The notes: generated by a model from the letters alone, not told the origin. A stretch of DNA of 62,116 bases from a virus (IMGVR_UViG_3300025913_000041:1-62116); one strand, 5' to 3'; positions 26,387 to 61,756 are shown, counted from the stretch's first letter. Numbers and translations: made by a program.

Positions 26387-27918
26387 TAGTAGGCTTTGGC
26401 TCCGGGTTTGAACTTCATGGTAGCCAATTCCGTACAAGCGTCAGACGCCGCATCAACCTGGTCATCGTAGTCATGTTGCTCGTCTTCTCTGAACTTCCGA
26501 TGCTCTTCCGTGAATGTCCAATTCCAATCCGCTCGCAAGAGATAGGCGTTTCCGCTGTTTACCTGTTCTGCCCATCTACCAGCACGAATTGCCTTTTTAC
26601 CGCGTACTGATTCTATTTTAGCCGCATAACTCGCAAGACGTTGAGCATCTTGCATCGCTTGGTCTTTACCGGCTTGGCTCGGATCTTGGGGGATGTGGAC
26701 AATTACATGACCAAAAGTCTCTTTGTCTTTGGCCGATGTCGCGTCAATCAGCTTCTTTACGTTGTTCGGCTCGTACTGATGTCTTTCTACGTCGAGCACA
26801 ACTGCAACGCCGTTCGATGCCATCGCGGTCAAAACTCCTACGGTCCAGTCCCCGCCGTCTTGAGTTCCGGCTTTGTCCCAAGCTCTACAGAATCGCCACT
26901 TCTCACCTTGTACGTCTTCTAGTTTGTCTGCGAACTTGAACTTGTGGTGATCGAAGAAATAGCCGTCAGCGCCCTGGACCTCTTGTTGTGACTCTCTCTT
27001 GAAAGCGGTCCATCCCCAATCGAGTATTTGCCTTTGGCAAACTTCAAGGTTTTGGCCTTCCCACGTCGCACGACCCCCGATGATCTTTTTGTAGTTCCTT
27101 CCGTTCGGGAGTTGCGCGTCTTCGATCACTAGATCGTTTACAGCTTTGATCGGCCCGGTTATCTCGGCACTAAGCAAGTAATCCGCTCGCTTCTCCACCA
27201 TCCGCGAAACAATCCCGTCTTCGATAATCAGGTTTTGAAGGAACAGAACAACGCAGTCGCTCGAACCTGCCGGGAGGATGGATTGCGTTACAGACCTTTC
27301 CTTTTTGGCCGTCGTCTTTGGTGTGTCTTCCCGGTCGTCAATGTCGTCGAGCACCATCAAATCAGGCCGAAACTCTTCTAATTTGACGCCTCGGGTTGTC
27401 GTGTCAAGCCCGATCCCCGCGAGGTTGAAACCATTGGAACTCCGCACTTGAGCACGTCGCCATCCTTTCGAGTGGCCTTGCATCGTTACTGCCGCCGTGT
27501 GTCCCAGTTTTTCGAGTAACGCCGCAACACTGGCGACATGCTCATCCGCCTTGTCTTGAGTCGAGCAAACGTACAAACAAAACCGCCTAGCAAGGCGTTC
27601 GGCTAGGTACGCGATGCCTAGCTGTCCCGTTTCCGATTTCGCCGCGCCGCGTGCCCATACTTCTACCCTTGGCTTCGGCCTTGACTGAGGGGTGATTGAT
27701 TCAAGCCATTGCCATAGGTCTTTGTGGTGTTGAGCCAGCGGTGCCGTAGCGATATGCGGAAACTTGCTATACAACCAAGCATGATATGGGCCGGTCTTCG
27801 CGGGGTTGAATTTGTTCCCCGTTCCCCCCATTCTCTCCACCCACATAGCCAACTCCCTTTTATCGGCTTCACTACCGTACTTGGCTATATCTTCAGGGGT
27901 GAGAGATTCTATCGACAC
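26386..27918 (-). CDS. terL: Terminase large subunit
   Basis: A 510-residue packaging motor. The ATPase has a Walker-A-like WARGAAKSETG (Lys94) and Walker B DLMVLDDIDD (Asp191, Asp192). The C-terminal RNase-H-like nuclease starts at RAWDKAGTQDGGDWTVGV and ends with a DDQVDAASDA acidic segment. It starts at GTG 27918, seven bases after a TAAAAT box, suggesting a leaderless transcript that begins the morphogenesis operon. The small subunit is about 5 kb upstream (32739-33332) rather than adjacent. Confidence 0.92.
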   Translation of the reverse strand: MSIESLTPEDIAKYGSEADKRELAMWVERMGGTGNKFNPAKTGPYHAWLYSKFPHIATAPLAQHHKDLWQWLESITPQSRPKPRVEVWARGAAKSETGQLGIAYLAERLARRFCLYVCSTQDKADEHVASVAALLEKLGHTAAVTMQGHSKGWRRAQVRSSNGFNLAGIGLDTTTRGVKLEEFRPDLMVLDDIDDREDTPKTTAKKERSVTQSILPAGSSDCVVLFLQNLIIEDGIVSRMVEKRADYLLSAEITGPIKAVNDLVIEDAQLPNGRNYKKIIGGRATWEGQNLEVCQRQILDWGWTAFKRESQQEVQGADGYFFDHHKFKFADKLEDVQGEKWRFCRAWDKAGTQDGGDWTVGVLTAMASNGVAVVLDVERHQYEPNNVKKLIDATSAKDKETFGHVIVHIPQDPSQAGKDQAMQDAQRLASYAAKIESVRGKKAIRAGRWAEQVNSGNAYLLRADWNWTFTEEHRKFREDEQHDYDDQVDAASDACTELATMKFKPGAKAY

Positions 27919-27925
27919 TGAGGTT

Positions 27926-27931
27926 ATTTTA
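27926..27931 (-). promoter_or_regulatory. -10 box of structural operon (leaderless)
   Basis: TAAAAT ends seven bases before the GTG start of terL. It lies directly downstream of a terminator, so the morphogenesis operon needs its own promoter. No consensus -35 is evident, which suggests activation or a phage-specific factor. Confidence 0.6.
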
Positions 27932-27949
27932 CGCGATGTTGTCTAAACG

Positions 27950-27984
27950 TAAAAAGAGCCGGACCTTTTGAGGGGTTCGGCTCT
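27950..27984 (-). terminator. Rho-independent terminator after tRNA-like gene
   Basis: AGAGCCG and CGGCTCT form a 7-bp stem followed by TTTTT on the minus strand. It closes the leftward transcript carrying the 28-29 kb genes and the tRNA-like gene, insulating it from the terL operon. Confidence 0.85.
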
Positions 27985-27989
27985 GAATT

Positions 27990-28080
27990 TGGTCCAGGGG
28001 CGAGAATTGAACTCGCTACGCACTCCCCCATCATCCTGAATGGATCATGGGAGCCGCTCTGCCGGTGAGCTACACACTGG
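27990..28080 (-). tRNA. Aberrant tRNA-like gene with 23-nt anticodon loop
   Basis: The 91-nt sequence shows a D-arm (GCTC/GAGC with loop ACCGGCA), a 5-nt variable loop (GCGTA), a perfect T-arm (GCGAG TTCAATT CTCGC) and an encoded 3' ACCA. The anticodon stem GCTCC/GGAGT encloses 23 instead of 7 bases, and these can extend the stem into a further hairpin (CATGATCC/GGATGATG with one mismatch). The acceptor stem is weak (CCAG/CTGG certain, the rest mismatched). No amino acid can be assigned. It may be a degenerate tRNA, a tRNA with a small insertion, or a tRNA mimic. Confidence 0.55.
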
Positions 28081-28168
28081 GGCTAGATTTTACCTCAGCC
28101 CATTCCCACGAAACTCGGCAAACCTTTCTTTCGTGGCCTTCTATACCTTGTAGGGGCAAGTTTTGTGC

Positions 28169-28603
28169 CTATACTTTCACGTCCTGCCAGATAGTCGTAG
28201 GGATGGATTTATCATCATAGGTGGTTCTGCTTCGGATCGTTCCGTCAGAGTTAAAGCGAATTACCCGGTCAAATTGATTGAGTTTCCTAATAGTCAAACT
28301 AATGCCATTTGCTCCGTTTGGAGTAGCGGCGATCTGGTCAAAGTCACCCGCGATACCGATAAGACGCTCAGCCGATTTACTATAGGTTTGATTTGCAAGG
28401 GGACTGGGACGGTCAGCCTCCGAAAGTTCGGAGGCGTATTCCTTCAGGCGGTCGCGGAGCCGCTGCATAAGGTCTTTCATGCTGTCTTCTTTACCCGTGG
28501 CTTTCGCTTGTGAGGGGTGAGTGCGACAGTGGCGACTCTCGAATATAGGATCTCCTGCAAGATCACACGGGATGTACCCGATTTTCGTTCGATGAGTCGC
28601 CAT
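28169..28603 (-). CDS. Hypothetical protein, 144 aa
   Basis: The C-terminal 90 residues, from MKDLMQRLRDRLKEYASELS, look convincingly coding and amphipathic. The N-terminal part is less certain, and translation may begin at ATG 28480. It is the last protein gene before the tRNA-like gene and terminator. No family recognised. Confidence 0.5.
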   Translation of the reverse strand: MATHRTKIGYIPCDLAGDPIFESRHCRTHPSQAKATGKEDSMKDLMQRLRDRLKEYASELSEADRPSPLANQTYSKSAERLIGIAGDFDQIAATPNGANGISLTIRKLNQFDRVIRFNSDGTIRSRTTYDDKSIPTTIWQDVKV

Positions 28604-28695
28604 TGATTTAAGACGGAGCTTAAACCCGTTCACTACCACTGAACAGTTTACCCCCTCTCTGGCTTATCGTCTGTACTGTCTATTGATTGGGAGAT

Positions 28696-28965
28696 TCAAG
28701 CAAATAGACCCGTGTCAATCGGCTCTGGTGCCTTCGGATAAAGCCAGTCAAGAACGATTCGACGTTCTTTGAGCCATGCTTTGTACGGCCACATGGCACG
28801 TTCACCGAACGGGTAGCACTTGTCAATCATCCTGACTAGCTTCTTCTTTTGGTCGTCGGTTAGTTCACGCGGGAACGTCGCAGGGTGAATGCCGTAATGA
28901 TCCGAGAACATCAGAACCGCTTCGGCTATCGCGTCCTTGGATCTTTTGCCCCAAGTCTCTTTCAT
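28696..28965 (-). CDS. Hypothetical protein, 89 aa
   Basis: A basic protein (MWPYKAWLKERRIVLDWLYP) from ATG 28965, which overlaps the upstream stop. Helical, tryptophan-rich C-terminal half. No function assigned. Confidence 0.6.
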   Translation of the reverse strand: MKETWGKRSKDAIAEAVLMFSDHYGIHPATFPRELTDDQKKKLVRMIDKCYPFGERAMWPYKAWLKERRIVLDWLYPKAPEPIDTGLFA

Positions 28966-29234
28966 AGGCAAACCTCGGATAGCGGAGTTTGCCAGTCGAG
29001 CGACATGGACTCAAGATCCTTCTTGGTTGGCGTGTACGACGCTTGGAATATGTCCTGACAAAACGAACTCTTGTCAACCATCGCGGAGTACGCAGCGCAA
29101 ACAGCATCATCGTCTGACAGATCGACTTCACCGCAGCAATGGACTCGGACTTTGTTGTATGCGGAAACGAACCTCCGCATCCGATTTATCGCGTCCTGGC
29201 GATACTTCGCCAGGACGAACTCATGAGCCTTCAC
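28962..29234 (-). CDS. Hypothetical protein, 90 aa
   Basis: Begins MKAHEFVLAKYRQDAINRMR; overlaps its neighbours by four bases on both sides. Contains four scattered cysteines, no clear metal motif. Member of the accessory operon. Confidence 0.6.
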   Translation of the reverse strand: MKAHEFVLAKYRQDAINRMRRFVSAYNKVRVHCCGEVDLSDDDAVCAAYSAMVDKSSFCQDIFQASYTPTKKDLESMSLDWQTPLSEVCL

Positions 29235-29461
29235 GCTTTCCCTGGCACCGCAAGCTCTGGCAGGTTATCGACCACGATCACCGCTCCCAATACGGACAAG
29301 AACTCACGCAAGCCCTTTTCAGCAGATGCGCGACTCAAGAAATTTGTCGAGCGCAGCACCGAGTACCTGAGCGAGTAATCAAAAAGAACCTCAAACTGAT
29401 AGTCCGAGACGATGCGTATCATGGCTTCAAACGGGACGGTTCCGATAGTTCCCGAAATCAT
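29231..29461 (-). CDS. Hypothetical protein, 76 aa
   Basis: Short soluble protein (MISGTIGTVPFEAMIRIVSD), coupled by ATGA on both sides. No recognised domain. Confidence 0.55.
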   Translation of the reverse strand: MISGTIGTVPFEAMIRIVSDYQFEVLFDYSLRYSVLRSTNFLSRASAEKGLREFLSVLGAVIVVDNLPELAVPGKA

Positions 29462-29712
29462 GCCGTCACCTCCTTCAATGTGATTCGCGGGAAGACTTCC
29501 CGAACATGAGCAAGAGGCTTAGCCCAACCGCATTCAGAGAAGTAACCAAGAATCGCGCCATCCCAACAAACTCTAACCTCGCCGCTACAGTGGCCGCAGC
29601 ATCCGACCGATTGTAGGTTGATCGTCTTGCCGGTTTGATACCATCCAAGATCCTTCAGTGACTCAACAATGCGCGGACTGAGCGATTGAATCAAGGCATC
29701 TGACTGGCTCAT
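29458..29712 (-). CDS. Hypothetical Cys-rich protein, 84 aa
   Basis: The ATG at 29712 overlaps the upstream stop and is preferred to the earlier ATG at 29763. CCGHCSG near the middle could bind a metal. No family recognised. Confidence 0.55.
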   Translation of the reverse strand: MSQSDALIQSLSPRIVESLKDLGWYQTGKTINLQSVGCCGHCSGEVRVCWDGAILGYFSECGWAKPLAHVREVFPRITLKEVTA

Positions 29713-29861
29713 CGGAGTTTCCTTACAGCCAGGATACTCTTCATGGTCGGGAACCGCAGCCATACGCCATTCTCGGCTTCGTCTTTGCTGTAGCCCATCT
29801 CAGTTGCCCACATAGGATCAATCTGATCGGAAAGAAGAACTAGGAAGTGATAAGTGTTCAC
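29709..29861 (-). CDS. Hypothetical 50-residue protein, leaderless GTG start
   Basis: From GTG 29861, six bases after a perfect TATAAT (29873-29868), it encodes a 50-residue protein beginning (M)NTYHFLVLLSDQID. An upstream start at 29960 would run through the promoter. It opens the leftward operon that ends at the tRNA-like gene. Confidence 0.55.
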   Translation of the reverse strand: MNTYHFLVLLSDQIDPMWATEMGYSKDEAENGVWLRFPTMKSILAVRKLR

Positions 29862-29923
29862 GCCTTTATTATAACACCATAAGTATCTTTTGGGTGTCTT
29901 TTTATGTGCGATAATCTCATCCG
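29862..29923. promoter_or_regulatory. Divergent leaderless promoters
   Basis: Leftward -10 TATAAT (29873-29868) is six bases from GTG 29861. Rightward -10 GATAAT (29910-29915) is eight bases from ATG 29924. GCGATAAT at 29908-29915 resembles GCGATAT motifs in the divergent regions at 36.5 and 49.8 kb and may be a shared operator. Confidence 0.6.
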
Positions 29924-30094
29924 ATGGAAAAAATAACAGCGCAACCGATGGGACGGCCAAAACTGCCCGCTGACGAGAGAACCAAGAGTTTTACGGTTCC
30001 ACTCACCCAAGATCAAATTGAGCACTGCAAAAGACAACCTGGCGGTCCCAGGGCTTATATCCGTTCACTTATTGACCGAGAGCGAAAGGGTTAA
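29924..30094 (+). CDS. Small AT-hook/ribbon-helix-helix-like DNA-binding protein A
   Basis: Encodes 56 residues: MGRPKLPADERTK (AT-hook-like GRP core), then a beta strand SFTVPLT, a helix QDQIEHCKRQP and a C-terminal helix YIRSLIDRERK. This is the layout of MetJ/Arc ribbon-helix-helix repressors. It is paralogous to the proteins at 36316-36471 and 33374-33538. It is transcribed alone and divergently from the 29.8 kb operon, the classic place for an autoregulatory repressor. Confidence 0.65.
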   Translation: MEKITAQPMGRPKLPADERTKSFTVPLTQDQIEHCKRQPGGPRAYIRSLIDRERKG

Positions 30095-30282
30095 ACAGCG
30101 ACCAGATTACAGACCAAGCATGACCGCTTTCAGTTGGCCTGGGTTCTCCTCGCCGAACCATCCAAGCGGAGATTATTCGACGGCTGCGATCAAGTCGCAA
30201 CGTACAAGGAGTCTCCCATTATAGCGTGTCCGTTTTCCTGGCTCGTGGCCGTCGTTGCTTGGCGTGACGATGCTCATAAAGC

Positions 30283-30309
30283 AAAAAGGCCGGTGTATCA
30301 CTTCCGGCC
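30283..30309 (-). terminator. Rho-independent terminator of candidate sRNA
   Basis: GGCCGG/CCGGCC stem with a 10-base loop followed by TTTTT on the minus strand. Confidence 0.8.
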
Positions 30310-30359
30310 CCTTGCAAATCCTTAACCGAGGGTGCTAAGGTTGTCCTAACTACTGAACG
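30283..30359 (-). ncRNA. Candidate small RNA (~77 nt)
   Basis: A minus-strand unit with a near-consensus promoter (TTGAAA-18 nt-TACAAT) just upstream and a rho-independent terminator at its end. Between them CCTTAG/TTAAGG can form a second hairpin. No ORF fits. Transcript start is predicted near 30359. Confidence 0.5.
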
Positions 30360-30365
30360 AAGAGG

Positions 30366-30395
30366 ATTGTATCACACCCTTCCACTCCGTTTCAA
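30366..30395 (-). promoter_or_regulatory. Sigma70-like promoter of candidate sRNA
   Basis: -35 TTGAAA (30395-30390), 18-bp spacer, -10 TACAAT (30371-30366). One of the few consensus-like -35/-10 pairs in the window. Confidence 0.6.
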
Positions 30396-30399
30396 GATG

Positions 30400-30660
30400 T
30401 TCGGGCCTGTAAACGTCTGCTCGTCAACAACTGTGTACAACTTTAGGGGGAGGGCTAGGCCAACAGAGCGAGACTGAGCCCCGCAGAACAACAGTCACAG
30501 AATCGGACCTACAGGGGTAAAGCCCCCTGTCCAGACACATAAAGAAGCCTCGTGGAAAAGCCGGGGTCCGAGTGGAGGAGTTGGCTGAACAGTAAATGAG
30601 AACTTGGATTCTCCCAGATTCCCTTAAAGGGGGGTAGGGGGGATTCCCAGTATGGAGAAG
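30400..30660. other. GC-rich region with hairpins, no convincing gene
   Basis: No convincing ORF on either strand. It contains ACAGGGG/CCCCTGT (30511-30530), GGGCT/AGCCC (30452-30481), and purine-rich GGGGGG-type runs near 30630-30645. Possibly structured RNA or the 5' leader of the gene at 30671. Confidence 0.35.
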
Positions 30661-30670
30661 GAACGCCTCA

Positions 30671-30886: not shown

Positions 30887-30915
30887 CACCAAATCAGTGC
30901 AACCGGAAACAAAGT

Positions 30916-30938
30916 AGCCAGCCGCTAGGACTGGCTTT
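30916..30938 (+). terminator. Weak hairpin terminator
   Basis: AGCCAG/CTGGCT with a 9-base loop and only three U residues after it; separates the plus-strand gene from the convergent minus-strand operon. Confidence 0.4.
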
Positions 30939-30974
30939 GCAGTGTCAAGCACTGGGAGAGTTCAAGTCTACTCC

Positions 30975-31955: not shown

Positions 31956-32134
31956 ATCGTGACCCCGTTCTTGGTGGAGGTAACGATTACTCGCTTTCTC
32001 CAAGAGCACCATTCCGCTCTACCGATCCAGCCATCGCCGGAATCGAACGTCTGCACTTTGCCAGTCTTCTTGGCAAGCGTCTTAGCTTCGGCATAACTCC
32101 CTGCCGAGAAGGTCGAGGTGGAAGAAGATTCCAT
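31952..32134 (-). CDS. Hypothetical protein, 60 aa, leaderless start
   Basis: ATG 32134 is six bases after a perfect TATAAT, indicating a leaderless first gene of the short operon running to 30975. Contains GWIGRAEWCSWRKRV. Function unknown. Confidence 0.6.
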   Translation of the reverse strand: MESSSTSTFSAGSYAEAKTLAKKTGKVQTFDSGDGWIGRAEWCSWRKRVIVTSTKNGVTI

Positions 32135-32140
32135 GTCTCG

Positions 32141-32146
32141 ATTATA
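32141..32146 (-). promoter_or_regulatory. -10 box of leaderless promoter
   Basis: TATAAT with CGAGAC before the ATG at 32134. No consensus -35 is evident. Confidence 0.6.
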
Positions 32147-32151: not shown

Positions 32152-32604
32152 CTATTCAATCGAACCTAATACTTTTATTCGCAAGTCGGATAAAAACTTG
32201 GTGAGTTGCTCAAATTCTTTCTCGGTAATCGAAAAGGTATGTGACTTTCTCTTTGCGCCGGAGGGATCTTTCACCTTGGGTCCAGATCCTGCGCGCGATC
32301 CACCGCGAGGTTTTGGCGAACCAAGTGGCGTGCGTCTTTTTTGCCTTGGGATACGCAAGCCCTCTGGTATCAGAACATCAGCTTTCCCGGCATTGCATTC
32401 GTGGCAGGATGTGATTAAATTATCTGACGCCGTAGTGCCTCCTGCGCTAAAAGGAACTACATGGTCAATGACCAACTTAACCTCTGGTGGAACTCTGCCG
32501 CAGTATTGGCACGTGAATAAATCTCGCGTGAATAACTCAAACCTCATGCTTGGGGACAGTTTCCGAGAACGGCGAGCCTGTAAAGGTACACTTAGATCAG
32601 ACAT
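32152..32604 (-). CDS. HNH endonuclease fused to ribbon-helix-helix-like tail
   Basis: A 150-residue protein. Residues about 20-75 hold an HNH nuclease: CQYC and CHEC zinc-binding pairs flank IDHVVPFSAGG and NLITSC. Residues about 100-145 (GSGPKVKDPSGAKR, then FSITEKEFEQLTKFLSDLR) match the small protein at 31355-31537. The fusion may target the nuclease to operator-like DNA. HNH proteins near terminase genes can also assist packaging; TerS is just upstream. Its ribosome-binding site is sequestered in a hairpin. Confidence 0.75.
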   Translation of the reverse strand: MSDLSVPLQARRSRKLSPSMRFELFTRDLFTCQYCGRVPPEVKLVIDHVVPFSAGGTTASDNLITSCHECNAGKADVLIPEGLRIPRQKRRTPLGSPKPRGGSRAGSGPKVKDPSGAKRKSHTFSITEKEFEQLTKFLSDLRIKVLGSIE

Positions 32605-33538: not shown

Positions 33539-34332
33539 TGCGACACACGACCCGCGATCTGCTTTGCAAGATCGAATGACCATTGATTGTAATTGCGCTG
33601 CCATGCACCAGCGGTAGGAGACCATCGGAAGCCGTTACTCTTCAGGTCCTCGATTATCACGCGCTCTGGCTTCCCTTGGAATACCATTTTGACTCGATTG
33701 TCTATTGGATCGGCTTGGATCTCGACGCCATTGATTTCCACTGTAATCAGCGACATTTTAGAACGCGCTTCGAGTGATGCAATTCGCTGTTTAACCTGCT
33801 TCATTTGACCATTGGAGTTGGTCAATTTGTAGGATGCGAAGCCGATAGATCCGAAGCAATCCGGAGTGTATAGATTCACAATTTGCGCTTCTGATAGCCC
33901 CAAGGCGGTAAGACCTGCGCGGTTCTTTTTGAGGATCAGCTTGTTAATCGCAATCATTTGCGCGTGATCGCTTTGGAGTTTCGCAAGCTTGGCGCGAAGG
34001 GCTTCGAGTGCATCGGGATCGTCGGAAGATATCGCCGTATTCGACTCTGCCGCTGATGCTTTCGCGTCTAACGCAGAAGCCGCGTCCATCGCCTCAAATC
34101 CTCGACGGTAACCGCTTTCGATCTTGGCGCGGTATCCACGGTCTCGATTCTCAGAGTGGTGCCCGACTAGGATCGGCTGGCCAAAGGGAATAATTGAAGC
34201 ACGATCTCGTGCGGTCTTTAATGTGGACTCGGCTTCGTTGCGCTTACGGTCGGCGGCGGCTCTAAGCCGTTCGATTCTAGCGGCTCTGCGAATCTGAAAA
34301 TCGTTGGTTGCGGTTGGGTTCGTTGTGTTCAT
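33535..34332 (-). CDS. DUF3560-like protein, 265 aa
   Basis: The N-terminal basic helix (IERLRAAADRKRNEAE), then PFGQPILVGHHSENRDRGYR, is the hallmark of DUF3560 proteins found on plasmids and phages. A coiled-coil (LEALRAKLAKLQSDHAQ) and a C-terminal small domain with GFRWSPTAGAWQR follow. Function unknown, possibly nucleic-acid binding. The gene starts nine bases after a TATAAT box with a good -35. Confidence 0.7.
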   Translation of the reverse strand: MNTTNPTATNDFQIRRAARIERLRAAADRKRNEAESTLKTARDRASIIPFGQPILVGHHSENRDRGYRAKIESGYRRGFEAMDAASALDAKASAAESNTAISSDDPDALEALRAKLAKLQSDHAQMIAINKLILKKNRAGLTALGLSEAQIVNLYTPDCFGSIGFASYKLTNSNGQMKQVKQRIASLEARSKMSLITVEINGVEIQADPIDNRVKMVFQGKPERVIIEDLKSNGFRWSPTAGAWQRNYNQWSFDLAKQIAGRVSQ

Positions 34333-34341: not shown

Positions 34342-34369
34342 ATTATACACCGCTTTTAATAGGATGCAA
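34342..34369 (-). promoter_or_regulatory. Consensus-like promoter of DUF3560-like gene
   Basis: -35 TTGCAT (34369-34364), 16-bp spacer ending GCGGTG, -10 TATAAT (34347-34342), ATG nine bases later. The same TTGCAT ... GCGGTG-TAT(A/C)AT elements occur in the plus-strand promoter at 36533-36561. Confidence 0.75.
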
Positions 34370-36094: not shown

Positions 36095-36319
36095 TCAATG
36101 CGTCACGAACCTATACTCCTGATCGTACAGCAAAGGCAACATTTCCGCGTAAGCATTCTGAATGGCCGAATCTCCGTCAGCATGTCCGCGATCCCATGCA
36201 AGATCGAACAGATAATGGCTGGCTGGCCCTGTTTGCACTCCGTAAACAGATTCGAGACGGGCCTTCGTTGCCCGCTGATCGTCACTCAAGCGCGAAAGGT
36301 AAATTGCTTGGTCGTTCAT
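36095..36319 (-). CDS. Hypothetical protein, 74 aa
   Basis: ATG 36319 overlaps the stop of the AT-hook/RHH gene (ATGA). Begins MNDQAIYLSRLSDDQRATKA; helical. Unknown function. Confidence 0.55.
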   Translation of the reverse strand: MNDQAIYLSRLSDDQRATKARLESVYGVQTGPASHYLFDLAWDRGHADGDSAIQNAYAEMLPLLYDQEYRFVTH

Positions 36320-36471
36320 CGCTTCCGATCCTCTTCTACCATCCGTCGAATGTAAGGACTCGCACCTTCTGGTTGGTTGTTGACGTGTGCCCATTGAGCC
36401 GCAGTCAGATGTACCGATCCGCGCTTGAGCTTCTTTTCATCGGCTAGTGCCGGTCTTCCCTTGCTTGCCAT
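36316..36471 (-). CDS. Small AT-hook/ribbon-helix-helix-like protein B, leaderless
   Basis: A 51-residue basic protein: MASKGRPALADEKKLKRG, strand SVHLT, helix AAQWAHVNNQPEG, and helix SPYIRRMVEEDRKR. Same plan as protein A. The ATG at 36471 lies six bases after a CATAAT box. It heads the leftward operon and faces a divergent plus-strand promoter, the expected position of a regulator controlling both. Confidence 0.65.
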   Translation of the reverse strand: MASKGRPALADEKKLKRGSVHLTAAQWAHVNNQPEGASPYIRRMVEEDRKR

Positions 36472-36477: not shown

Positions 36478-36561
36478 ATTATGCACACTTTTCAGGATAT
36501 TTAGCGATATGTTTCGTGGGCCAATAAAATGCTTGCATTCCTGATATATGCGGTGTATCAT
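36478..36561. promoter_or_regulatory. Divergent promoter region at 36.5 kb
   Basis: Leftward -10 CATAAT (36483-36478). Rightward -35 TTGCAT (36533-36538), 17-bp spacer, -10 TATCAT (36556-36561). GCGATAT at 36504 recalls the motif in the other divergent regions. A transcript from the right promoter has a normal leader with an AAGGAA ribosome-binding site. Confidence 0.65.
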
Positions 36562-46990: not shown

Positions 46991-47154
46991 GTCTTATCTC
47001 CCGTAGCGGCTGACTCTCTCAAAGCTGCTAAAGCGTTTTGAAGGCATGATTCGCAAAGCCAAAGCCAGTTGTCTTTACTGTGGAATTCGGCGCATAGCTT
47101 TTTCTCGTCGCAGTCGTCACGCACCTCAATAACGATGTCGCTAAGGATTCTCAT
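46987..47154 (-). CDS. Hypothetical protein, 55 aa
   Basis: ATG 47154 overlaps the PolX-like gene stop. Contains CESC and an upstream Cys pair; acidic (IVIEVRDDCDEKKLC). Possibly a small zinc protein. Confidence 0.55.
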   Translation of the reverse strand: MRILSDIVIEVRDDCDEKKLCAEFHSKDNWLWLCESCLQNALAALRESAATGDKT

Positions 47155-47729
47155 TTCCTGTCCTCCGGCGCGATCCAATCAAGACCGACTGCCTTAAATA
47201 CATCCGCTTCTTCTGGCGTTTCGATCATCTTGCCGAAACTCAAAAGAGCGCCGCCCTCGATCCTCATTCCCGTTTGTAGAATCTGACCGCCTGCGGCTTT
47301 CTGCAAAACGAATCGCTTGTTAAAGTCGCCCGATCCTGTGCGAATCAAGAGAATCATTCCGTATTGGCTTGGCGGGATGACCGGAAAAATGTCTAGCGCA
47401 AATCCCTTGTATCGAAGTCGTTGGCATCCAGCGCCGCAACAGTTGACGCCGTTCTTATCAGGACGATGATCGAAAGTGCCTTCGGAAATTAAATGTTGGA
47501 CACGCGCCAACTGAAGATTAGTGACCCCGGTCGCCTCGCCAAACAAACTCAGTCCGGCGTCTTCAAACTTCGGAGCGCAAACAATCTCAATGTCTCCGCA
47601 ATCCGCTTTCTTGCGTCTAATGCTCCCGGCAATGTCGATACGCACACAAGACGCGCAGATAAGTCCGTAGGCCTCTTCTGCGTACTGCCTGGCAATCGCA
47701 AGCGGTAGTCTTTCCTTTTGTTCGCTCAC
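47151..47729 (-). CDS. Minimal DNA polymerase X-like nucleotidyltransferase
   Basis: A 192-residue protein. IDIAGSIRRKKADCGDIEIV (residues 31-50) is the family X palm signature: GSxRR, then two carboxylates D46 and E48. A third candidate carboxylate is in FALDIFPV. The HhH and 8-kDa domains of full PolX are lacking, so the enzyme is a stand-alone palm. It could act in gap repair or end processing, or add nucleotides to a small substrate. Confidence 0.75.
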   Translation of the reverse strand: MSEQKERLPLAIARQYAEEAYGLICASCVRIDIAGSIRRKKADCGDIEIVCAPKFEDAGLSLFGEATGVTNLQLARVQHLISEGTFDHRPDKNGVNCCGAGCQRLRYKGFALDIFPVIPPSQYGMILLIRTGSGDFNKRFVLQKAAGGQILQTGMRIEGGALLSFGKMIETPEEADVFKAVGLDWIAPEDRK

Positions 47730-49579: not shown

Positions 49580-49789
49580 TTATTTCCCCTCTTGGGCGAG
49601 CCGTGCGCCGATCTTGGCAAGGTTCTTCACTTGCGTCCCGTCGATTCGCTCTCCGAGTTCCTTTACGTTGATGGCTTCCGCAACCCTTGGAGCGGATAAA
49701 CCCGCGACACGATAAAGCTCATACGCCAACACATACATAGCCTCGGGGAACTTCAATGCGGGTCCCGTCCGCTTGGCTGTTTCATCCAT
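49580..49789 (-). CDS. Small HTH-like DNA-binding protein, leaderless
   Basis: A 69-residue protein, first gene of the 10-kb leftward operon. RTGPALKFPEAMYVLAYELY followed by GLSAPRVAEAINVKELGERI reads as a helix-turn-helix. The GPALKF start recalls the GRP segment of the AT-hook/RHH proteins. ATG 49789 is six bases after a CATAAT box. A regulator of the divergent promoters is plausible. Confidence 0.6.
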   Translation of the reverse strand: MDETAKRTGPALKFPEAMYVLAYELYRVAGLSAPRVAEAINVKELGERIDGTQVKNLAKIGARLAQEGK

Positions 49790-49795: not shown

Positions 49796-49849
49796 ATTAT
49801 GCGCGATATTTTAGGAATACGTGCGATTTATTCGGAAACCGTGTATAAT
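49796..49849. promoter_or_regulatory. Divergent leaderless promoter hub at 49.8 kb
   Basis: Leftward -10 CATAAT (49801-49796) is six bases from ATG 49789; rightward -10 TATAAT (49844-49849) is seven bases from ATG 49857. GCGATATTTTA (49803) and GCGATTTATT (49824) between them resemble motifs at 29908 and 36504. This controls the replication operon and the 49.9-57 kb operon. Confidence 0.7.
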
Positions 49850-49856: not shown

Positions 49857-50270
49857 ATGAGCAGCGCAACCACACTCGAAACGCCGACAACGGAACAGAC
49901 CGCAAGACCTATTCACTGTGTCGAATGCGGAGAACCCATCAGCTACAACTACGGCTTCGACGTTCCCGAAAGACTCGCAACGTTCGGACTCTGCTACCAC
50001 TGTGATTTCTGGGTAGACGTTCTGAGTTCAAAGCATCTTGGCGTTGTGTTCGAGAAGTTAGGCGGTAGACGATGCCACTGCCAGCCGATCCTAACGACGC
50101 CGGGACAGGAAAGCATCTTCGATAAGTTCTACCGATTGACAGACGGGACCATTCTCCGATGCTCTAAGGTTTGGCATCAGGACGAGATCCCCATGAACTT
50201 TTTTGACAGGTTCCCCGTAAGCGGAATCGAGATCAGCAAGGCAGATTTTGATAAGGAGTTGGAGGTTTAG
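49857..50270 (+). CDS. Zinc-finger-like protein, 137 aa, leaderless
   Basis: First gene of the right-hand operon. CVEC and CYHC pairs 34 residues apart plus CHC suggest zinc binding (IHCVECGEPISYNYG ... FGLCYHCDFWVD). ATG 49857 chosen because TATAAT ends seven bases before it; the upstream in-frame ATG at 49821 lies in the promoter. Confidence 0.65.
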   Translation: MSSATTLETPTTEQTARPIHCVECGEPISYNYGFDVPERLATFGLCYHCDFWVDVLSSKHLGVVFEKLGGRRCHCQPILTTPGQESIFDKFYRLTDGTILRCSKVWHQDEIPMNFFDRFPVSGIEISKADFDKELEV

Positions 50271-53440: not shown

Positions 53441-53701
53441 ATGGAAACTATCATTAGGGCTTACAGGAGATCCCAGGGAGCATCAGCTAAGTCTATTTCC
53501 GATGCGGCTGGTTGTTCGCCGCAAATGCTCAACGATATTGAATTTGACAGGAGGACGCCATCTCCAACACTGGCGCATCGCTTGCTTTCAGCGTTAAATG
53601 CTCCGCTTGACATCAGATCGGCTTGCGTTTGTGCTTGGGCGACTAATGCGCGAGACACGGCTAATGCTTGGGATTCAGTCTCGCGCGGGGTCGATCCATG
53701 A
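53441..53701 (+). CDS. XRE-family helix-turn-helix regulator
   Basis: An 86-residue protein. Residues about 8-50 (AYRRSQGASAKSISDAAGCS, QMLNDIEFDRRTPSP) form a Cro/CI-type HTH. The ATG at 53441 follows a TAAACT box by eight bases, so it may be leaderless; TTG 53432 is an alternative start. Its stop overlaps the HNH start (ATGA), so regulator and nuclease are co-expressed. Confidence 0.7.
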   Translation: METIIRAYRRSQGASAKSISDAAGCSPQMLNDIEFDRRTPSPTLAHRLLSALNAPLDIRSACVCAWATNARDTANAWDSVSRGVDP

Positions 53702-54333
53702 GACATCCTTATATCATTCCGGCCCCAGGGTCAAGATTCGGGAGACTTGTAGTTGGAGCGCCTATCGGAAGGTCAGCGAGCGGGATGCTGATGATAGACG
53801 TGGTCTGCGACTGCGGCAAACCTTTTTCGACCACGCTCAAGAATCTATTTTCAGGGCAGACAAAGAGTTGCGGTTGCCTCAAGTTTGACATACATAGCCG
53901 AAGGCTTTGGAAGCACGGGATGGTCCCGAAGGCTTTGTATACGTGCTGGAGAAACATGCTGATGCGGTGTTCGAATCCAGGGTACGAGGGATACGAGAAT
54001 TATGGTGGCAGGGGCATATCTGTTTGCGATGAGTGGAAAGTATTCATTGCTTTTAGAGATTGGGCTTTTTCAAGTGGTTACGCTAAAGGTCTTACTATCG
54101 AGCGAAAGGACGTGAACGGCAGTTACAACGCCGACAACTGCTGCTGGATACCTAAGAGTGCTCAAGCCTGGAATAAGCGCAATAGTCATTTATTGACCGC
54201 CTTTGGAGAGACGAAATCAGTCCCCGCATGGGCACGGGATTCAAGGTGCAGGGTCAGCCAATCGGTTATACGTGGCAGGATTTACAGATGGGAGAGCCAC
54301 GAGGCCATTCTCACTACTCCCAAATTGCATTAA
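53698..54333 (+). CDS. Mobile HNH endonuclease
   Basis: A 211-residue protein of the phage homing-endonuclease type. The N-terminal GSRFGRLVVGAPIGR and CDCG ... TKSCGC form a zinc-bearing recognition module. The HNH core MRCSNPGYEGYENYGGRGIS, TIERKDVNGSYNADNCCWIP follows, then a C-terminal helical DNA-binding part. Same architecture as 57130-57762. Probably an intronless selfish gene. Confidence 0.8.
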   Translation: MRHPYIIPAPGSRFGRLVVGAPIGRSASGMLMIDVVCDCGKPFSTTLKNLFSGQTKSCGCLKFDIHSRRLWKHGMVPKALYTCWRNMLMRCSNPGYEGYENYGGRGISVCDEWKVFIAFRDWAFSSGYAKGLTIERKDVNGSYNADNCCWIPKSAQAWNKRNSHLLTAFGETKSVPAWARDSRCRVSQSVIRGRIYRWESHEAILTTPKLH

Positions 54334-56862: not shown

Positions 56863-57038
56863 TTCCCAGGTATCTGTAGTTTGAGTGATGCAATACGGGC
56901 GATTAGGATGGCAATGTCGTTCAGGCCATTTGACGATGTGCTCGCAAAATCCGCCTGTACGCTCGTTTGAGTGTATGTGTCGGTGTTCTGCTGGGCGTTA
57001 AGTTCAGTAGCTACCTGCGTTGCGAGCGTTCCATCCAT
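56859..57038 (-). CDS. Hypothetical protein, 59 aa, leaderless
   Basis: ATG 57038 lies seven bases after TATACT (57051-57046). S/T/Q-rich protein (TELNAQQNTDTYTQTSVQAD) ending in a hydrophobic helix. A lone minus-strand gene among plus-strand genes. Unknown function. Confidence 0.5.
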   Translation of the reverse strand: MDGTLATQVATELNAQQNTDTYTQTSVQADFASTSSNGLNDIAILIARIASLKLQIPGN

Positions 57039-57045
57039 GGACGCC

Positions 57046-57051
57046 AGTATA
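57046..57051 (-). promoter_or_regulatory. -10 box of leaderless promoter
   Basis: TATACT with seven bases to the ATG at 57038. Confidence 0.5.
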
Positions 57052-57129: not shown

Positions 57130-57762
57130 ATGCCTAGATTACTTGATTTATCTGGACAACGTTTTGGACGCGTAACCGTTATCCAACGCTCTCACGGGAA
57201 GGGGCATTCCATTTACTGGCGGTGCCTATGCGACTGCGGGAACTCTACTGCGCTACTCGGATCTGGGCTTAGGGATGGCAAGACAATCTCCTGTGGATGT
57301 GCCAGAAGATCTGATCCTGATTCAGGCATGAACCCAAAAGATTACGCAATCCTAGCGAAATGTTGGAGAGAGCTGATACGTCGCTGCACATCTTCGCATG
57401 ACGCTCATTTCCCGAATTATGGCGGTCGCGGTATAGGCGTATGCGAAAGATGGTCTAGCCCGGATGGTCTTGAGTTTTTTATCCGAGATATGGGGGTTCG
57501 CCCGTCTGCCCATCACAGCATAGACAGAAAAAACAATATGGCAGATTATTCGCCCGATAATTGCAGGTGGGCAACACTGACCGAACAGAACCGTAATCGT
57601 CGTAGTAATCGGTATTTTGAGTGGGACGGAGAAACACTACTACTGGCTGATTGGTCTAGAAAATTGGGCATTCATTCCTCAACAATCAAACGCAGCCTTT
57701 CTCGCGGCAAAACGATTGGTGATTTGATTAAGCAAGGACCAAGCATGTCAAGGATCAAATAA
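57130..57762 (+). CDS. Mobile HNH endonuclease (second copy of family)
   Basis: A 210-residue paralogue of 53698-54333. GQRFGRVTVIQRS and CDCG...TISCGC are followed by the core LIRRCTSSHDAHFPNYGGRG, HHSIDRKNNMADYSPDNCRW and a C-terminal helix-turn-helix-like SRKLGIHSSTIKRSL. AGGAGG lies six bases before ATG. An upstream CGCCTCCGCG could pair with that site and limit expression. Likely a selfish homing gene inserted between the lysis genes. Confidence 0.8.
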   Translation: MPRLLDLSGQRFGRVTVIQRSHGKGHSIYWRCLCDCGNSTALLGSGLRDGKTISCGCARRSDPDSGMNPKDYAILAKCWRELIRRCTSSHDAHFPNYGGRGIGVCERWSSPDGLEFFIRDMGVRPSAHHSIDRKNNMADYSPDNCRWATLTEQNRNRRSNRYFEWDGETLLLADWSRKLGIHSSTIKRSLSRGKTIGDLIKQGPSMSRIK

Positions 57763-57770
57763 AGTGTCGG

Positions 57771-58115
57771 TCATTTCGTCTCTAGTTTAAGCTGTACTAG
57801 GATCAAATGCAATACCTTATCCACGTCTGCATTTCGTTGGGCTTGTGTTTTTGCGTTCGATATGACCGCCAAATGGTCAGACTCTGCCCTGGCGTGGTCT
57901 TGGTCCGATCTTTCTTTAAGCACCTTAACCTCGTCGTCAACCTTCTGACGAAGAGCCGATTCGAGCGCCGCCATTTGTTGCGCACTCGCTGGAGGTGGCA
58001 TATTTACAGCCACGTTGACACCATAGGCGCAGATAGCCGTAAACGACAAAGCAACCACCAGAATGGCGATTAACAGGCCCTTGATCGAGGGATCTTCTCT
58101 GTCTGTCCTAGACAT
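57771..58115 (-). CDS. Membrane-anchored coiled-coil protein (i-spanin-like), 114 aa
   Basis: ATG 58115 overlaps the upstream gene. One TM helix (GLLIAILVVALSFTAICAYG) is followed by a long periplasmic-type coiled coil (QQMAALESALRQKVDDEVKV). This is the topology of Rz-type inner-membrane spanins. No o-spanin lipoprotein was found nearby. Proximity to the endolysin supports a lysis role. Confidence 0.6.
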   Translation of the reverse strand: MSRTDREDPSIKGLLIAILVVALSFTAICAYGVNVAVNMPPPASAQQMAALESALRQKVDDEVKVLKERSDQDHARAESDHLAVISNAKTQAQRNADVDKVLHLILVQLKLETK

Positions 58116-58356
58116 GCTTTGACTCCGATATACCGGCTTCTCGGCCTCTTTGGAAGTTCTTCTCATCAATCAGAGACATTACAAGCGCTTTCAAGTCGGC
58201 CACCTCTTTATCTCGAATCTTGTCGAGTTCCTGATCTGCGAACTGATGCTTAATGACTGCTGAGATATCGTTCAGACCCTTGACGCCGATCCCTACCAAC
58301 GCACCGACGACCAGAAGGATTGACCCTTGCAGAAGTTGTGAGAAGTTCAGGTTCAT
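58108..58356 (-). CDS. Small membrane protein, holin candidate 1, 82 aa
   Basis: N-terminal hydrophobic helix (LLQGSILLVVGALVGIGVKG) and a charged, helical C-terminal half (QELDKIRDKEVADLKALV). Middle gene of a three-gene membrane-protein cluster near the endolysin. Confidence 0.6.
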   Translation of the reverse strand: MNLNFSQLLQGSILLVVGALVGIGVKGLNDISAVIKHQFADQELDKIRDKEVADLKALVMSLIDEKNFQRGREAGISESKHV

Positions 58357-58586
58357 TGATGTACCGGGCCATCCCTAGCGACGACTTTAAGCAACTGTTC
58401 GGTCATTAGTTTAGCCGCTTTAATCTCTTCAAGTCGCGAAGCTTTTGCTTCTGTAATGTGACGTTGCCGGTACTTGATCCTTTTCAGCCCAATGTGACAA
58501 AGGGCAGATAACGTAAAAGCGGCACCGATGAGCCCCGAAAGGAAGATAAAGTACAGGATCTGTGAAGGACTCATAGCTTCGTTCAT
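58353..58586 (-). CDS. Small membrane protein, holin candidate 2, 77 aa
   Basis: Hydrophobic segment (ILYFIFLSGLIGAAFTLSAL) near the N-terminus followed by a basic region (LKRIKYRQRHITEAKASR). First gene of the cluster; one or two membrane passes. Overlaps the next gene by four bases. Confidence 0.6.
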   Translation of the reverse strand: MNEAMSPSQILYFIFLSGLIGAAFTLSALCHIGLKRIKYRQRHITEAKASRLEEIKAAKLMTEQLLKVVARDGPVHQ

Positions 58587-58640
58587 CTATCTTAGCGGAT
58601 TGGCAAAGAAAGAACCAAGTTCAAATAGTCCCAAGCCATG

Positions 58641-58724
58641 TATAATCACATCGACGCGGTATTGGGTGTCAGTGGGTTACTGTTCATAGCTTAGGGCCGT
58701 TCTGAGAAATCGGAGCGGTCTTTT
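58641..58724 (+). ncRNA. Candidate small RNA with promoter and terminator
   Basis: TATAAT at 58641-58646 is followed about 50 bases later by CCGTTC/GAGCGG (58697-58718) and TCTTTT. There is no start codon close to the -10 and no ORF, unlike the leaderless promoters here. The transcript would be about 70 nt. The -35 is poor. It lies upstream of and divergent to the holin-candidate cluster. Confidence 0.4.
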
Positions 58725-58816
58725 GCTTTGTGGCAGTTCCGCAACTTTCGAACCGCTTCCATCGTCTCAGAAGTTGTATCCAACCCTCTCTAGTCCTTTG
58801 AAGCGTCGAACCAGTA

Positions 58817-58918
58817 ATGGAACGGCGCTTCTTTGATTTTGATGACGCCTTCCCTTGGTTGCTGTGGGGATCGTGGATCGTGTCGATTGCGGCTATCGGA
58901 TGGGTGCTCTTTCGGTAA
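58817..58918 (+). CDS. 33-residue transmembrane peptide
   Basis: Encodes MERRFFDFDDAFPWLLWGSW and IVSIAAIGWVLFR. One hydrophobic helix. No strong ribosome-binding site, so coding status is tentative. Confidence 0.35.
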   Translation: MERRFFDFDDAFPWLLWGSWIVSIAAIGWVLFR

Positions 58919-58962
58919 ACTCCAAGAGCGTTCAGACGTGAGCGCAAGGACACCATAAGCTT

Positions 58963-59280
58963 ATGCAACTCAAAGCAAACCTCATTTTCAGCGAGCGCAT
59001 TCATCTGCCGATATTCGGCTTCGACCACACATACGCCCAGACCGTCAAGGAAGCTATTCCGCTCGACGTAAAGTACGACAAACAACTACCGTTCGGACTG
59101 AGCTTCGACGTGACGACCGAGGGAACGACCATCCATGCCGACATCAAAGAGGCGGGACTTATCACGCTCGTGGACATTCCGATTAAGGTCGGCGAAAACA
59201 GAGTCGTGAGTCTCAACCTGTTCCCAGGGTTCCACATCAACGGAACGCTCGAAGTGGTTGGCGATTCTCCTGCCGTCTAG
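58963..59280 (+). CDS. Hypothetical beta-rich protein, 105 aa
   Basis: Alternating beta strands (ANLIFSERIHLPIFGFDHTY ... GLITLVDIPIKVG) suggest a small structural or Ig-like fold. A terminator follows immediately. The gene stands alone on the plus strand. Function unknown. Confidence 0.6.
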   Translation: MQLKANLIFSERIHLPIFGFDHTYAQTVKEAIPLDVKYDKQLPFGLSFDVTTEGTTIHADIKEAGLITLVDIPIKVGENRVVSLNLFPGFHINGTLEVVGDSPAV

Positions 59281-59307
59281 GCTGTTCGCTGAGACGCTGA
59301 AATAGTT

Positions 59308-59337
59308 AAGCCCCTGATTGTTACGTCAGGGGCTTTT
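59308..59337 (+). terminator. Rho-independent terminator
   Basis: AAGCCCCTGA/TCAGGGGCTT (10 bp, 8-base loop) followed by TTTTC. It separates the plus-strand gene from the convergent phosphatase operon and may act weakly in both directions. Confidence 0.85.
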
Positions 59338-59354
59338 CTGTTGGTGAGAGAGAC

Positions 59355-59855
59355 TTAACCGAAACAGTGCCTTACCTCTAAGTCGATGGATCGTTGGAAC
59401 GACTCCCGCAACATCTTGAGGATGTATTGATTAGGCGCGAACTGTTCCTCAAACCAAGGTGAAGGTTCATTGAACCGCTCATAGATCGCTTGAGCAACCG
59501 CTGCCGACCTGGATATTCCCGCCTCACACTGGCAAACAAACAACTTGACGCCCAGCGCATAACTAGACAGGACCCTCTCTACAATCAGATCCGCCTGTTC
59601 GGTTGAAATGATCCGATCCGCATAGGTTGAAAGGTCATTCCCTATGATGTCGTCAATATGGAGAGGCATCAACCCGACTCGTTGGGAATTGTGCGGATAT
59701 TTCGCGTGGAAGTTGCTGTGTTCCGTCATGGATATAACCAAGTGCGGACGCTTAATTTTCGCGCTCATGTCCACGAGATCACGCGGCCAAACCAAAACGC
59801 TGACGCTCGCGCCCTCAAAAGGTAATCGGTTGTCAGCGCCAAATGCACTCAGCAT
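59355..59855 (-). CDS. Protein tyrosine / dual-specificity phosphatase-like protein
   Basis: A 166-residue protein. FVCQCEAGISRSAAV contains the P-loop CX5R (Cys110, Arg116), and HIDDI (residues 66-70) is a candidate general-acid loop. The fold length fits small DSP-type phosphatases of bacteria and phages. May remove phosphates from host or phage proteins, or from RNA ends. Last gene of the TnpB operon. Confidence 0.7.
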   Translation of the reverse strand: MLSAFGADNRLPFEGASVSVLVWPRDLVDMSAKIKRPHLVISMTEHSNFHAKYPHNSQRVGLMPLHIDDIIGNDLSTYADRIISTEQADLIVERVLSSYALGVKLFVCQCEAGISRSAAVAQAIYERFNEPSPWFEEQFAPNQYILKMLRESFQRSIDLEVRHCFG

Positions 59856-60022
59856 TCCTTCCCCATCTCCTCAGTACGTAAAGCACCGAAACCAATTGAT
59901 TCTTCATCGTCGCAAGCGTCTACGGCTTCGACAAGTAACAGTGCGAAATAGTCAGCATCCTGCCAGTTGCATTTTCGCCACTTCTTTGCTGCCTCTATTA
60001 CTGCTCTTTCAGCGTCGGTCAT
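59849..60022 (-). CDS. Hypothetical protein, 57 aa
   Basis: ATG 60022 overlaps the upstream stop. Begins MTDAERAVIEAAKKWRKCNW; acidic helical protein of a kind common in phage operons. Overlaps the phosphatase start by seven bases. Confidence 0.55.
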   Translation of the reverse strand: MTDAERAVIEAAKKWRKCNWQDADYFALLLVEAVDACDDEESIGFGALRTEEMGKEC

Positions 60023-60210
60023 CCCAGATTCTCCCGTTCTCCAGGACCGTAGTAGTAGGGATCGACCGCACGACGGCAAGCATCGTAACTCGTGTCAGGG
60101 AGGGGCCGGTTAAGCATCCTTTCGAGAGCGTCCGCAGCTTCGATTATGTCTTGCGTTTGGACTGTTCCCGACTTAACCGATGCCCTGAGTCTTTCGATTA
60201 ACTCCCTCAT
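60019..60210 (-). CDS. Hypothetical protein, 63 aa
   Basis: Helical N-terminus (MRELIERLRASVKSG, IIEAADALERMLNR) typical of small phage proteins that accompany DUF-type genes. Coupled on both sides. Confidence 0.55.
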   Translation of the reverse strand: MRELIERLRASVKSGTVQTQDIIEAADALERMLNRPLPDTSYDACRRAVDPYYYGPGERENLG

Positions 60211-60581
60211 TTCCCTACCTCCAGTGCATCAAGAGCATACAAAGCGTTACCGGTTTCTGTTCTAGCATCCTCTTGGCCTTCGTTATGCTTGTGGCTTGTG
60301 GCCTTTTCCCAGTTTCGGGCCGCTTCCGTAACCTTCTCTAACAGTTCTAACCTCGCTTGTATAGATTCAGCGTGAGCGAGCCAGCCGCGCCACATAAAGC
60401 GGACGCCAGGGTAGAAGTATCGACCGTCCTCAACTCGCGAGAACCAGTGAGGATCTCCGGTGTAACTGGGCTCCGATGCTACCCATGCTTCAAACTCCTT
60501 TCGAGTCGCTTCGATCTGGCTTTCAGTTAGTTGGCTGTTTTGGTCGCTCACTGGGTTACCTCTGATTGGGATGTTCTTCAT
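60207..60581 (-). CDS. Hypothetical protein, 124 aa
   Basis: GAGGAAATGGA before ATG 60581. Contains RKEFEAWVASEPSYTGDPHW and FMWRGWLAHAESIQARLEL. The second element resembles a motif in the protein at 48527-48862. Unknown function; directly downstream of TnpB. Confidence 0.6.
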   Translation of the reverse strand: MKNIPIRGNPVSDQNSQLTESQIEATRKEFEAWVASEPSYTGDPHWFSRVEDGRYFYPGVRFMWRGWLAHAESIQARLELLEKVTEAARNWEKATSHKHNEGQEDARTETGNALYALDALEVGK

Positions 60582-60652
60582 TCCATTTCCTCGTCTAAGA
60601 CAGTAGGGTCCTCTGAACTTTCGTTCTTGACGTTCCAATTCTGCGGCACGAA

Positions 60653-61741
60653 CTACGCAGCGGACATCATTAGGGTCTTGGACAGTTGACCCCGTACAGC
60701 TATATTTCGGGCGGCGTTGTGGTCCGCATTCATAAAGCTGCCGCATAAGTTGCATTCAAATCGAGACTGGCTTTTCCTATTCGCTTTATCACAGTGACCA
60801 CACTTCGAACACGTTCTGGAAGTGTTGCGCGGGTCCACGAAGACAACCGGTATCCCGGCGTCCTGTGCTTTGTATGCGATCTTTTGACGGAGATCGTAGA
60901 ACGACCAACCGCCTAAGAGCCATCTCATCTCCTTTCCGAAACCGTTGTCTCGATCCCGAATACCTTTCAAGTCTTCGAGTGCGAGTGCCTTTAGAGAATC
61001 GACCGCCTTTTTGACGATCTGTTTGGAAATCACATGGTTGGCGTTCTGCATGAACCGACTTTGCTTGCGTCGGATCTTGCATAGGTGACGCTTTGCCGAC
61101 TTCGTGCTCTTCCTTTGGAGCAACGCACGAAGCCTTCGCGTTTTTCGCCGTACAGCCTTAATGGGTTCTCCCGCGACCGATTCACCATCTGAGTCGGTCG
61201 CAACCTGCGAGATCCCCAAATCGACGCCAAGAACCCCGCTAGTCGGCTTGGTAGGCACGTCCGGTAGAGTGACCGAGATAGCTAGGTAAAACTCATTATC
61301 TCGGCAAATCAATAACGCTTCCCCGATCTTCCCAGCGGCCAACATTTCCCGTTGTTTGCCGCCGTGCGCGAGCGAGAACGTCAATCGTCCCTGTGTGGTC
61401 GTAATCTTCACCGACGACACGCCGACCAACTTGTAAACCCCTTTGTGGAGTGATACGGCCCCTGTCGCACGAAAGACATGCCTCTCGGTGCGATCTGCCT
61501 TGTATGAATTGGCTACGCCACGCATCGCAGTGCAAACACTGACCGATGGCAGAGACGGCTCCGCTTTCCTCGCCGCGTGGTACGCCTTCGTGTGAAGCGC
61601 AAATAATCCAAACGTGCGAGTGCCCCATGCAATATCGGAAATCAGATTCGACACCCGCGCGTACACAGCCATCGTATCAGCGAGAATTATCCTCGTTTCT
61701 TCGGTGGTACGCAATTTGCATGTCACAATCCTTACAGGCAT
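60653..61741 (-). CDS. tnpB: TnpB-family RNA-guided nuclease-like protein
   Basis: A 362-residue protein with intact RuvC residues: Asp174 (GVDLGIS), Glu256 (LEDLKGI) and Asp340 (NADHNAARN). A zinc ribbon C311-C314/C330-C333 is inserted before the last motif. This matches catalytic TnpB of IS200/IS605/IS607 elements. No TnpA transposase or clear IS ends are visible. ATG 61741 lies seven bases after TATACT, so the mRNA is probably leaderless. It could be a decayed mobile element or a phage-adopted nuclease. Confidence 0.88.
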   Translation of the reverse strand: MPVRIVTCKLRTTEETRIILADTMAVYARVSNLISDIAWGTRTFGLFALHTKAYHAARKAEPSLPSVSVCTAMRGVANSYKADRTERHVFRATGAVSLHKGVYKLVGVSSVKITTTQGRLTFSLAHGGKQREMLAAGKIGEALLICRDNEFYLAISVTLPDVPTKPTSGVLGVDLGISQVATDSDGESVAGEPIKAVRRKTRRLRALLQRKSTKSAKRHLCKIRRKQSRFMQNANHVISKQIVKKAVDSLKALALEDLKGIRDRDNGFGKEMRWLLGGWSFYDLRQKIAYKAQDAGIPVVFVDPRNTSRTCSKCGHCDKANRKSQSRFECNLCGSFMNADHNAARNIAVRGQLSKTLMMSAA

Positions 61742-61743
61742 AC

Positions 61744-61756
61744 GGTATAGTATACC
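61744..61756. promoter_or_regulatory. Palindromic divergent promoter/operator
   Basis: GGTATAGTATACC is a perfect palindrome about a central base. It contains the leftward -10 TATACT (61754-61749), seven bases from the TnpB ATG, and a rightward TATAGT. A dimeric repressor here would control both TnpB and the plus-strand operon starting at 61785. Confidence 0.55.

Follow-up and report, generated by a model that had tools for sequence, protein, structure and literature searches.

TATAAT-like boxes immediately before start codons are probable leaderless promoters at operon heads of a mosaic phage

The phage genome and its boxed genes

IMGVR_UViG_3300025913_000041 is a virus record representing a 62-kb phage with a GC content of 52 %. 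Its whole stretch of 62,116 nt, hereafter the window, was analysed for TATAAT-like hexamers that lie directly before start codons and may serve as -10 elements of promoters for leaderless mRNAs. A repeat of about 109 bp at both ends (1–109 and 62008–62116) stops in a poly-C tract that is read differently at either end, so the window very probably represents a complete circular genome whose assembly was broken at this tract. Genes were identified for HK97-type head proteins, a portal protein and the terminase large subunit (TerL), as well as a terminase small subunit, a DUF3560 protein, TnpB, several HNH endonucleases, a Gp2.5/Enc34-type single-stranded DNA-binding protein and a Mu Gam-like protein. 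Two mosaic relatives were compared with it, IMG/VR 3300010371_000004 (63.9 kb, with a 123-bp end repeat; hereafter G001) and IMG/VR 3300005539_000151 (14.4 kb; hereafter L019), in which blocks of high identity to the window (mostly 87–100 %) alternate with unrelated DNA. From the IMG numbers we take the samples to be soil.

Ten such hexamers had been proposed by the original prediction, and all ten were verified at exactly the proposed strand and spacing:

27926–27931, minus strand: box TAAAAT, 7 nt before the terL GTG at 27918; kept with the TerL N-terminus in G001 and L019
29868–29873, minus strand: box TATAAT, preceded by TGT, 6 nt before the GTG at 29861, which opens a minus-strand ORF (open reading frame) of 50 amino acids (aa) that is ATGA-coupled to 29458–29712
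29910–29915, plus strand: box GATAAT, preceded by TGC, 8 nt before the ATG at 29924
32141–32146, minus strand: box TATAAT, 6 nt before the ATG at 32134, within the 17-nt gap after the HNH ORF 32152–32604
34342–34347, minus strand: box TATAAT, 9 nt before the ATG at 34332 (DUF3560 protein)
36478–36483, minus strand: box CATAAT, 6 nt before the ATG at 36471 (51-aa ribbon-helix-helix-like protein)
49796–49801, minus strand: box CATAAT, 6 nt before the ATG at 49789 (69 aa)
49844–49849, plus strand: box TATAAT, 7 nt before the ATG at 49857 (137 aa)
57046–57051, minus strand: box TATACT, 7 nt before the ATG at 57038 (59 aa), with an HNH gene in divergent orientation
61749–61754, minus strand: box TATACT, 7 nt before the ATG at 61741 (TnpB)

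The accompanying claim that all ten genes are the first of their operons was clear for eight. It did not hold for 32134, which is not a clean operon head since the HNH ORF upstream lies on the same strand and ends 17 nt before its ATG, and it was weak for 34332, where another gene on the same strand lies 67 nt upstream. Evidence that the ORF at 29861 is a gene is weak (codon score of 2.7 and a weak PHROG match).

Enrichment of boxes at operon heads

A box was defined as a TATAAT-like hexamer with a match of at least 5/6, situated 5–9 nt before a start, and its frequency was compared between operon heads and operon-internal genes. Boxes were present at 10/39 heads and at 1/69 internal genes (Fisher p=1.3e-4), frequencies whose equality would have counted against the original prediction, and Markov sequence of the same composition gave an expectation of 1.04 +/- 0.96 boxed heads with a maximum of 5 in 500 trials. 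For this first count, four called starts had been shifted upstream; when all genomes were put through one and the same start-tolerant procedure, the window again had 10/39 boxed heads, with 1.4 in the displaced-bin control. The ten boxed heads of the first count differ in part from the ten listed above, in that they include 2050 and 7783 and omit 29861 and 29924, which were not called by the gene caller. The matches at 2050 (TATAAA) and 7783 (TATGAT), both weaker hexamers, and at 16169, where the box is internal to an operon, were counted and are not claimed as promoters. Five short or atypical genes of the window had escaped the gene caller, and with the completed gene list boxes were found at 11/41 heads and 2/72 internal genes (p=2.3e-4), including 7 of the 12 divergent operon heads. 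The upstream match profile of the heads displayed a single peak at 4–7 nt (nine heads), with no more than two in every other 4-nt bin.

Boxed heads were also distinguished by their lack of a Shine–Dalgarno (SD) sequence. An SD-like sequence of at least 4 nt was found at none of the ten boxed window heads of the 10/39 count and at one of eight boxed heads in G001, whilst SD sequences were present at 14/29 unboxed heads and 47/68 unboxed internal genes of the window. A whole-genome count of ATG codons following near-TATAAT hexamers gave a weak signal only, because coding DNA dominates such a count, and it was replaced by the gene-start tests above. Near-TATAAT hexamers are rarer across the entire window than the Markov model predicts (270 observed, 357 expected).

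The start-tolerant test was extended to the relatives and to control genomes, the latter in small samples of 50–100 kb each. G001 had boxes at 8/43 heads (2.0 in the control bin) and L019 at 2/10 (0.4), whilst no excess was observed in lambda (0/25), Synechococcus phage Sc-Yong805-2 (0/21) or Escherichia coli (1/29). Deinococcus radiodurans MP1 and Thermus phage P23-45 gave 2/25 and 3/30, respectively. With the looser motif TANNNT and annotated starts, the count for the sampled D. radiodurans plasmid rose to 6/23 heads, where control bins gave 1.3, and E. coli had boxes at 0/28. The head test therefore responds to a known leaderless organism, D. radiodurans, and does not respond to the acidobacterial sample considered below.

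Motif and flanking sequence

Alignment of 16 boxes revealed that the A, T, A and final T of the hexamer are nearly invariant. Across the three positions preceding the box, A occurred in 0 of 48 cells and G occupied the last position in 10/16 sites. This flank, restricted to G, T and C, played no part in box selection and thus favours a genuine signal for RNA polymerase. No -35 element was recognizable before the 16 boxes, the best match being only 2–4 of 6 positions. Among intergenic motif matches scoring at least 10 in the window, eight of nine precede a start codon at 6–9 nt. The exception, at 30223 on the minus strand, is a strong cgcTATAAT that has no nearby start codon. A 220-bp block around it (30048–30267) is 96 % conserved in L019 and could possibly be a non-coding RNA or a leadered promoter.

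Recurrence and movement in related phages

As an out-of-sample test, the hexamer profile of the ten boxes was applied to intergenic DNA of G001 and L019 lacking any match to the window. ORF starts were found at a distance of 6 nt five times, against approximately 0.4 per position at 10–49 nt, and a start lay at 5–9 nt for 6/29 boxes (binomial p=0.0095). The genes behind these boxes are mostly unrelated to those of the window: in G001 they include an IS1595 transposase and a 126-aa ORF, and in L019 small proteins, one of them NikA/CopG-like. In G001, TATATT is also found upstream of two ATG codons, at 6 nt for a 283-aa protein and at 5 nt for an HNH gene.

Individual cassettes revealed both movement and retention of the box. 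The segment carrying TnpB (60625–61756) is relocated and inverted in G001 (17764–18897), and the box has moved along with it (75–83 % DNA identity). The homologue of the 49857 gene (G001 19531, 95 % aa identity) lies downstream of unrelated DNA, yet has CGC-TATAAT 6 nt before its ATG, and the position of 36471 is occupied in L019 by a different gene with a box of its own. The body of TerL has been swapped in G001 (62282–63799) for a different TerL-like protein with the promoter region kept; the borders of this swap are an identical 32-residue N-terminus and a common C-terminal tail, FKPGAKAY.

Support for the leaderless interpretation and its alternatives

On the strength of position, SD absence, recurrence in relatives and the controls, all read from sequence, the boxes are very likely sigma-70-type -10 elements, with transcription starting on or 1–3 nt before the start codon to yield leaderless mRNAs. 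The original prediction is strongly supported in this respect. The assignment of start codons is corroborated by homology, as a distant homologue aligns with TerL from residue 6 of the protein begun at GTG 27918, a plasmid homologue aligns with TnpB from residue 1 (ATG 61741), and the Pfam domain of the DUF3560 protein begins at residue 12 (ATG 34332). All three genes were mis-started by the SD-weighted gene caller used here.

Several observations weigh against this interpretation. About 70 % of window heads have no box and about half of those use an SD sequence, so that leaderless initiation is not the sole arrangement in the window. Transcripts from the upstream HNH gene could read through into 32134. 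Our in-house gene prediction is approximate and overlooks genes of atypical codon usage, and the 16-site motif set was partly selected by spacing. An acidobacterial Granulicella plasmid (100-kb sample) displayed no excess in the start-tolerant test (1/47 heads), nor was there one with TANNNT and annotated starts (3/38, control 2.0). Finally, terL has an alternative ATG at 27846, 72 nt downstream of the GTG and preceded by the SD-like AAGGGAG. This last observation is an argument for regarding the boxes as genuine -10 elements of genes whose true starts lie downstream behind an SD sequence, which would give short leaders. We consider that unlikely, as in the three proteins aligned above the stretch that an alternative start would remove is conserved or forms part of a known domain, and the peak in spacing at 6–7 nt would be hard to explain otherwise. 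The hexamers might instead be operators or other protein-binding sites, as hinted by inverted repeats that overlap or abut the boxes at 61741 (GGTATA-C-TATACC, overlapping 61749–61754), G001 34443 and L019 2523. At most boxes, however, an inverted repeat was no better than in shuffled sequence, and a common operator was rejected on the grounds that the repeats are not general. The motif held in common is TATAAT itself at -10 geometry, making a purely operator function very unlikely; operators laid over promoters would in any case be compatible with leaderless transcription.

Chance matches in AT-rich DNA near starts, picked by eye, must also be weighed given that many of the 270 near-TATAAT hexamers in the window stand before chance ATG codons. 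Against this, ten boxed heads were observed where Markov sequence predicts 1.0 of 39 and displaced bins 1.4, the spacing peak recurs in the relatives outside common DNA, and the hexamer is depleted rather than abundant genome-wide, all of which renders coincidence highly improbable. An archaeal type of leaderless gene, with a TATA box approximately 26 bp before the start, would fit the only match returned by a TnpB search of 85k genomes, a Thermoplasmata metagenome-assembled genome at 33 % identity. TnpB is mobile, however, and its best plasmid matches are mostly bacterial. The boxes lie at 6–9 nt and not at 20–26 nt, the window has no peak at 20–27 nt, and many internal genes carry SD motifs. 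The short distance and these SD motifs indicate a bacterial rather than an archaeal system, and we regard an archaeal origin as barely credible.

If the boxes act as leaderless promoters, host RNA polymerase would recognize TATAAT with its G/T/C-only upstream flank and no recognizable -35 element, and would initiate 6–8 nt downstream of the box, on or beside the first base (A or G) of the RTG codon. The ribosome would then begin at the 5'-terminal codon with no SD contact, whilst genes further down the operon mostly use SD sequences or start–stop coupling. Promoter and start would form a compact unit on many cassettes (small regulators, TnpB, the terL/structural block) that may function wherever recombination places it, a property that could benefit mosaic exchange. 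A broader proposal, which we offer as possible rather than probable, is that much of the transcription by host polymerase in this lineage starts from this one promoter type, a G/T/C-flanked TATAAT lacking a -35 element and placed 6–7 nt before the first codon, which exchangeable cassettes (TnpB, IS1595, HNH, structural block) would carry as a plug-in unit independent of ribosome-binding sites.

Other features of the window

Further genes and elements of the window were as follows:

26386–27918, minus strand: terL, with GTG start, first gene of a structural block of about 25 kb (PHROG_38, E=4e-48)
27951–27984, minus strand: intrinsic-terminator-like hairpin and T-run just upstream of the putative terL promoter (direct sequence reading)
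29924–30094, plus strand: 56-aa basic protein, ribbon-helix-helix-like by inspection
60653–61741, minus strand: TnpB (IS605 OrfB / Cas12f1-like TNB domain; Pfam PF07282, PF01385)
32152–32604 (PHROG E=6e-23), 53668–54333 and 57130–57762: three HNH endonuclease genes

The 29924–30094 protein is a paralogue of that encoded at 36316–36471 (BLASTP 39 % over 46 aa, E=2e-11). The HNH genes at 32152–32604 and 57130–57762 have clearly negative scores on the phage's own codon usage, which suggests that they are recent acquisitions. At 47151–47729 on the minus strand, a short protein matches the thumb and part of the palm of DNA polymerase beta (family X).

Directly before terL, the minus strand of 27990–28082 contains an element resembling a tRNA, in which a hairpin similar to a D-arm, a T-arm (GCGAG-TTCAATT-CTCGC) and a terminal CCA can be distinguished. 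A long hairpin replaces the anticodon arm and the acceptor stem is weak; a TAAAAT box lies just upstream of the element and a terminator just downstream. It was not recognized by ARAGORN or Rfam, and an Rfam search of the window gave no match.

Known leaderless systems and the host

Leaderless genes have been reported in Deinococcota, Actinobacteria, Acidobacteria (three of three genomes), Deltaproteobacteria and others (PMC3160421). In that study, Zheng et al. (2011) described TANNNT about 12 bp before the start, counted from the first T, with TAtaaT in medium-GC genomes, and noted that operon-proximal genes can be leaderless with distal ones using SD sequences (PMC3160421). The boxes described here have the same geometry as those TA-like or Pribnow-led genes and suggest a similar division into leaderless proximal genes, a position that is clear for eight of the ten, and SD-led distal ones, but whereas those belong to cellular genomes, ours are found in a phage and include a terminase/structural block and mobile nuclease genes. 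Zhong et al. (2025) demonstrated experimentally that a -10 motif lying a few bp upstream of ORFs in Deinococcus-Thermus is a promoter for leaderless mRNA, and that a -35 element enhances it (PMC12340547). The position is similar in the phage, although the Deinococcus-Thermus motif is TANNNT in high-GC genomes and that of the phage a fuller TATAAT with a G/T/C-only flank at 52 % GC. Phage transcripts are said to be often leaderless (PMC5312081), and E. coli ribosomes bind leaderless mRNA, as PMC5312081 relates of a paper that it cites. The lambda case (PMC3160421) likewise involves mRNA beginning at the start codon, but none of the 25 lambda heads was boxed, in contrast to roughly a quarter of all heads and most divergent heads in the window.

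The proposal that leaderless starts point to a particular host translation system was not established, given that leaderless genes occur in many phyla and the Granulicella plasmid sample displayed no excess. Searches intended to link the phage to a host were of little help: the TnpB search of genomes yielded the single archaeal match described above, tblastn searches of phages and plasmids failed or were uninformative, and none of them connected the phage with Deinococcota or Acidobacteriota. Searches of viral contigs with the DUF3560 and single-stranded DNA-binding proteins found no relatives. Acidobacteria, a host hinted at by the literature (PMC3160421), were not supported by the sampled Granulicella plasmid.

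Although the arrangement itself is known in bacteria, its share of cassettes, including TnpB, IS1595, HNH and the structural block, is less usual. The statistics make a clear case for a phage group in which many cassettes, from the terminase/structural block to mobile nucleases, would be headed by leaderless promoters. Start codons overlooked by gene finders that rely on ribosome-binding sites can be placed with the help of such phages, which, were the host known, could also be used to test how far leaderless initiation dominates host translation during infection.

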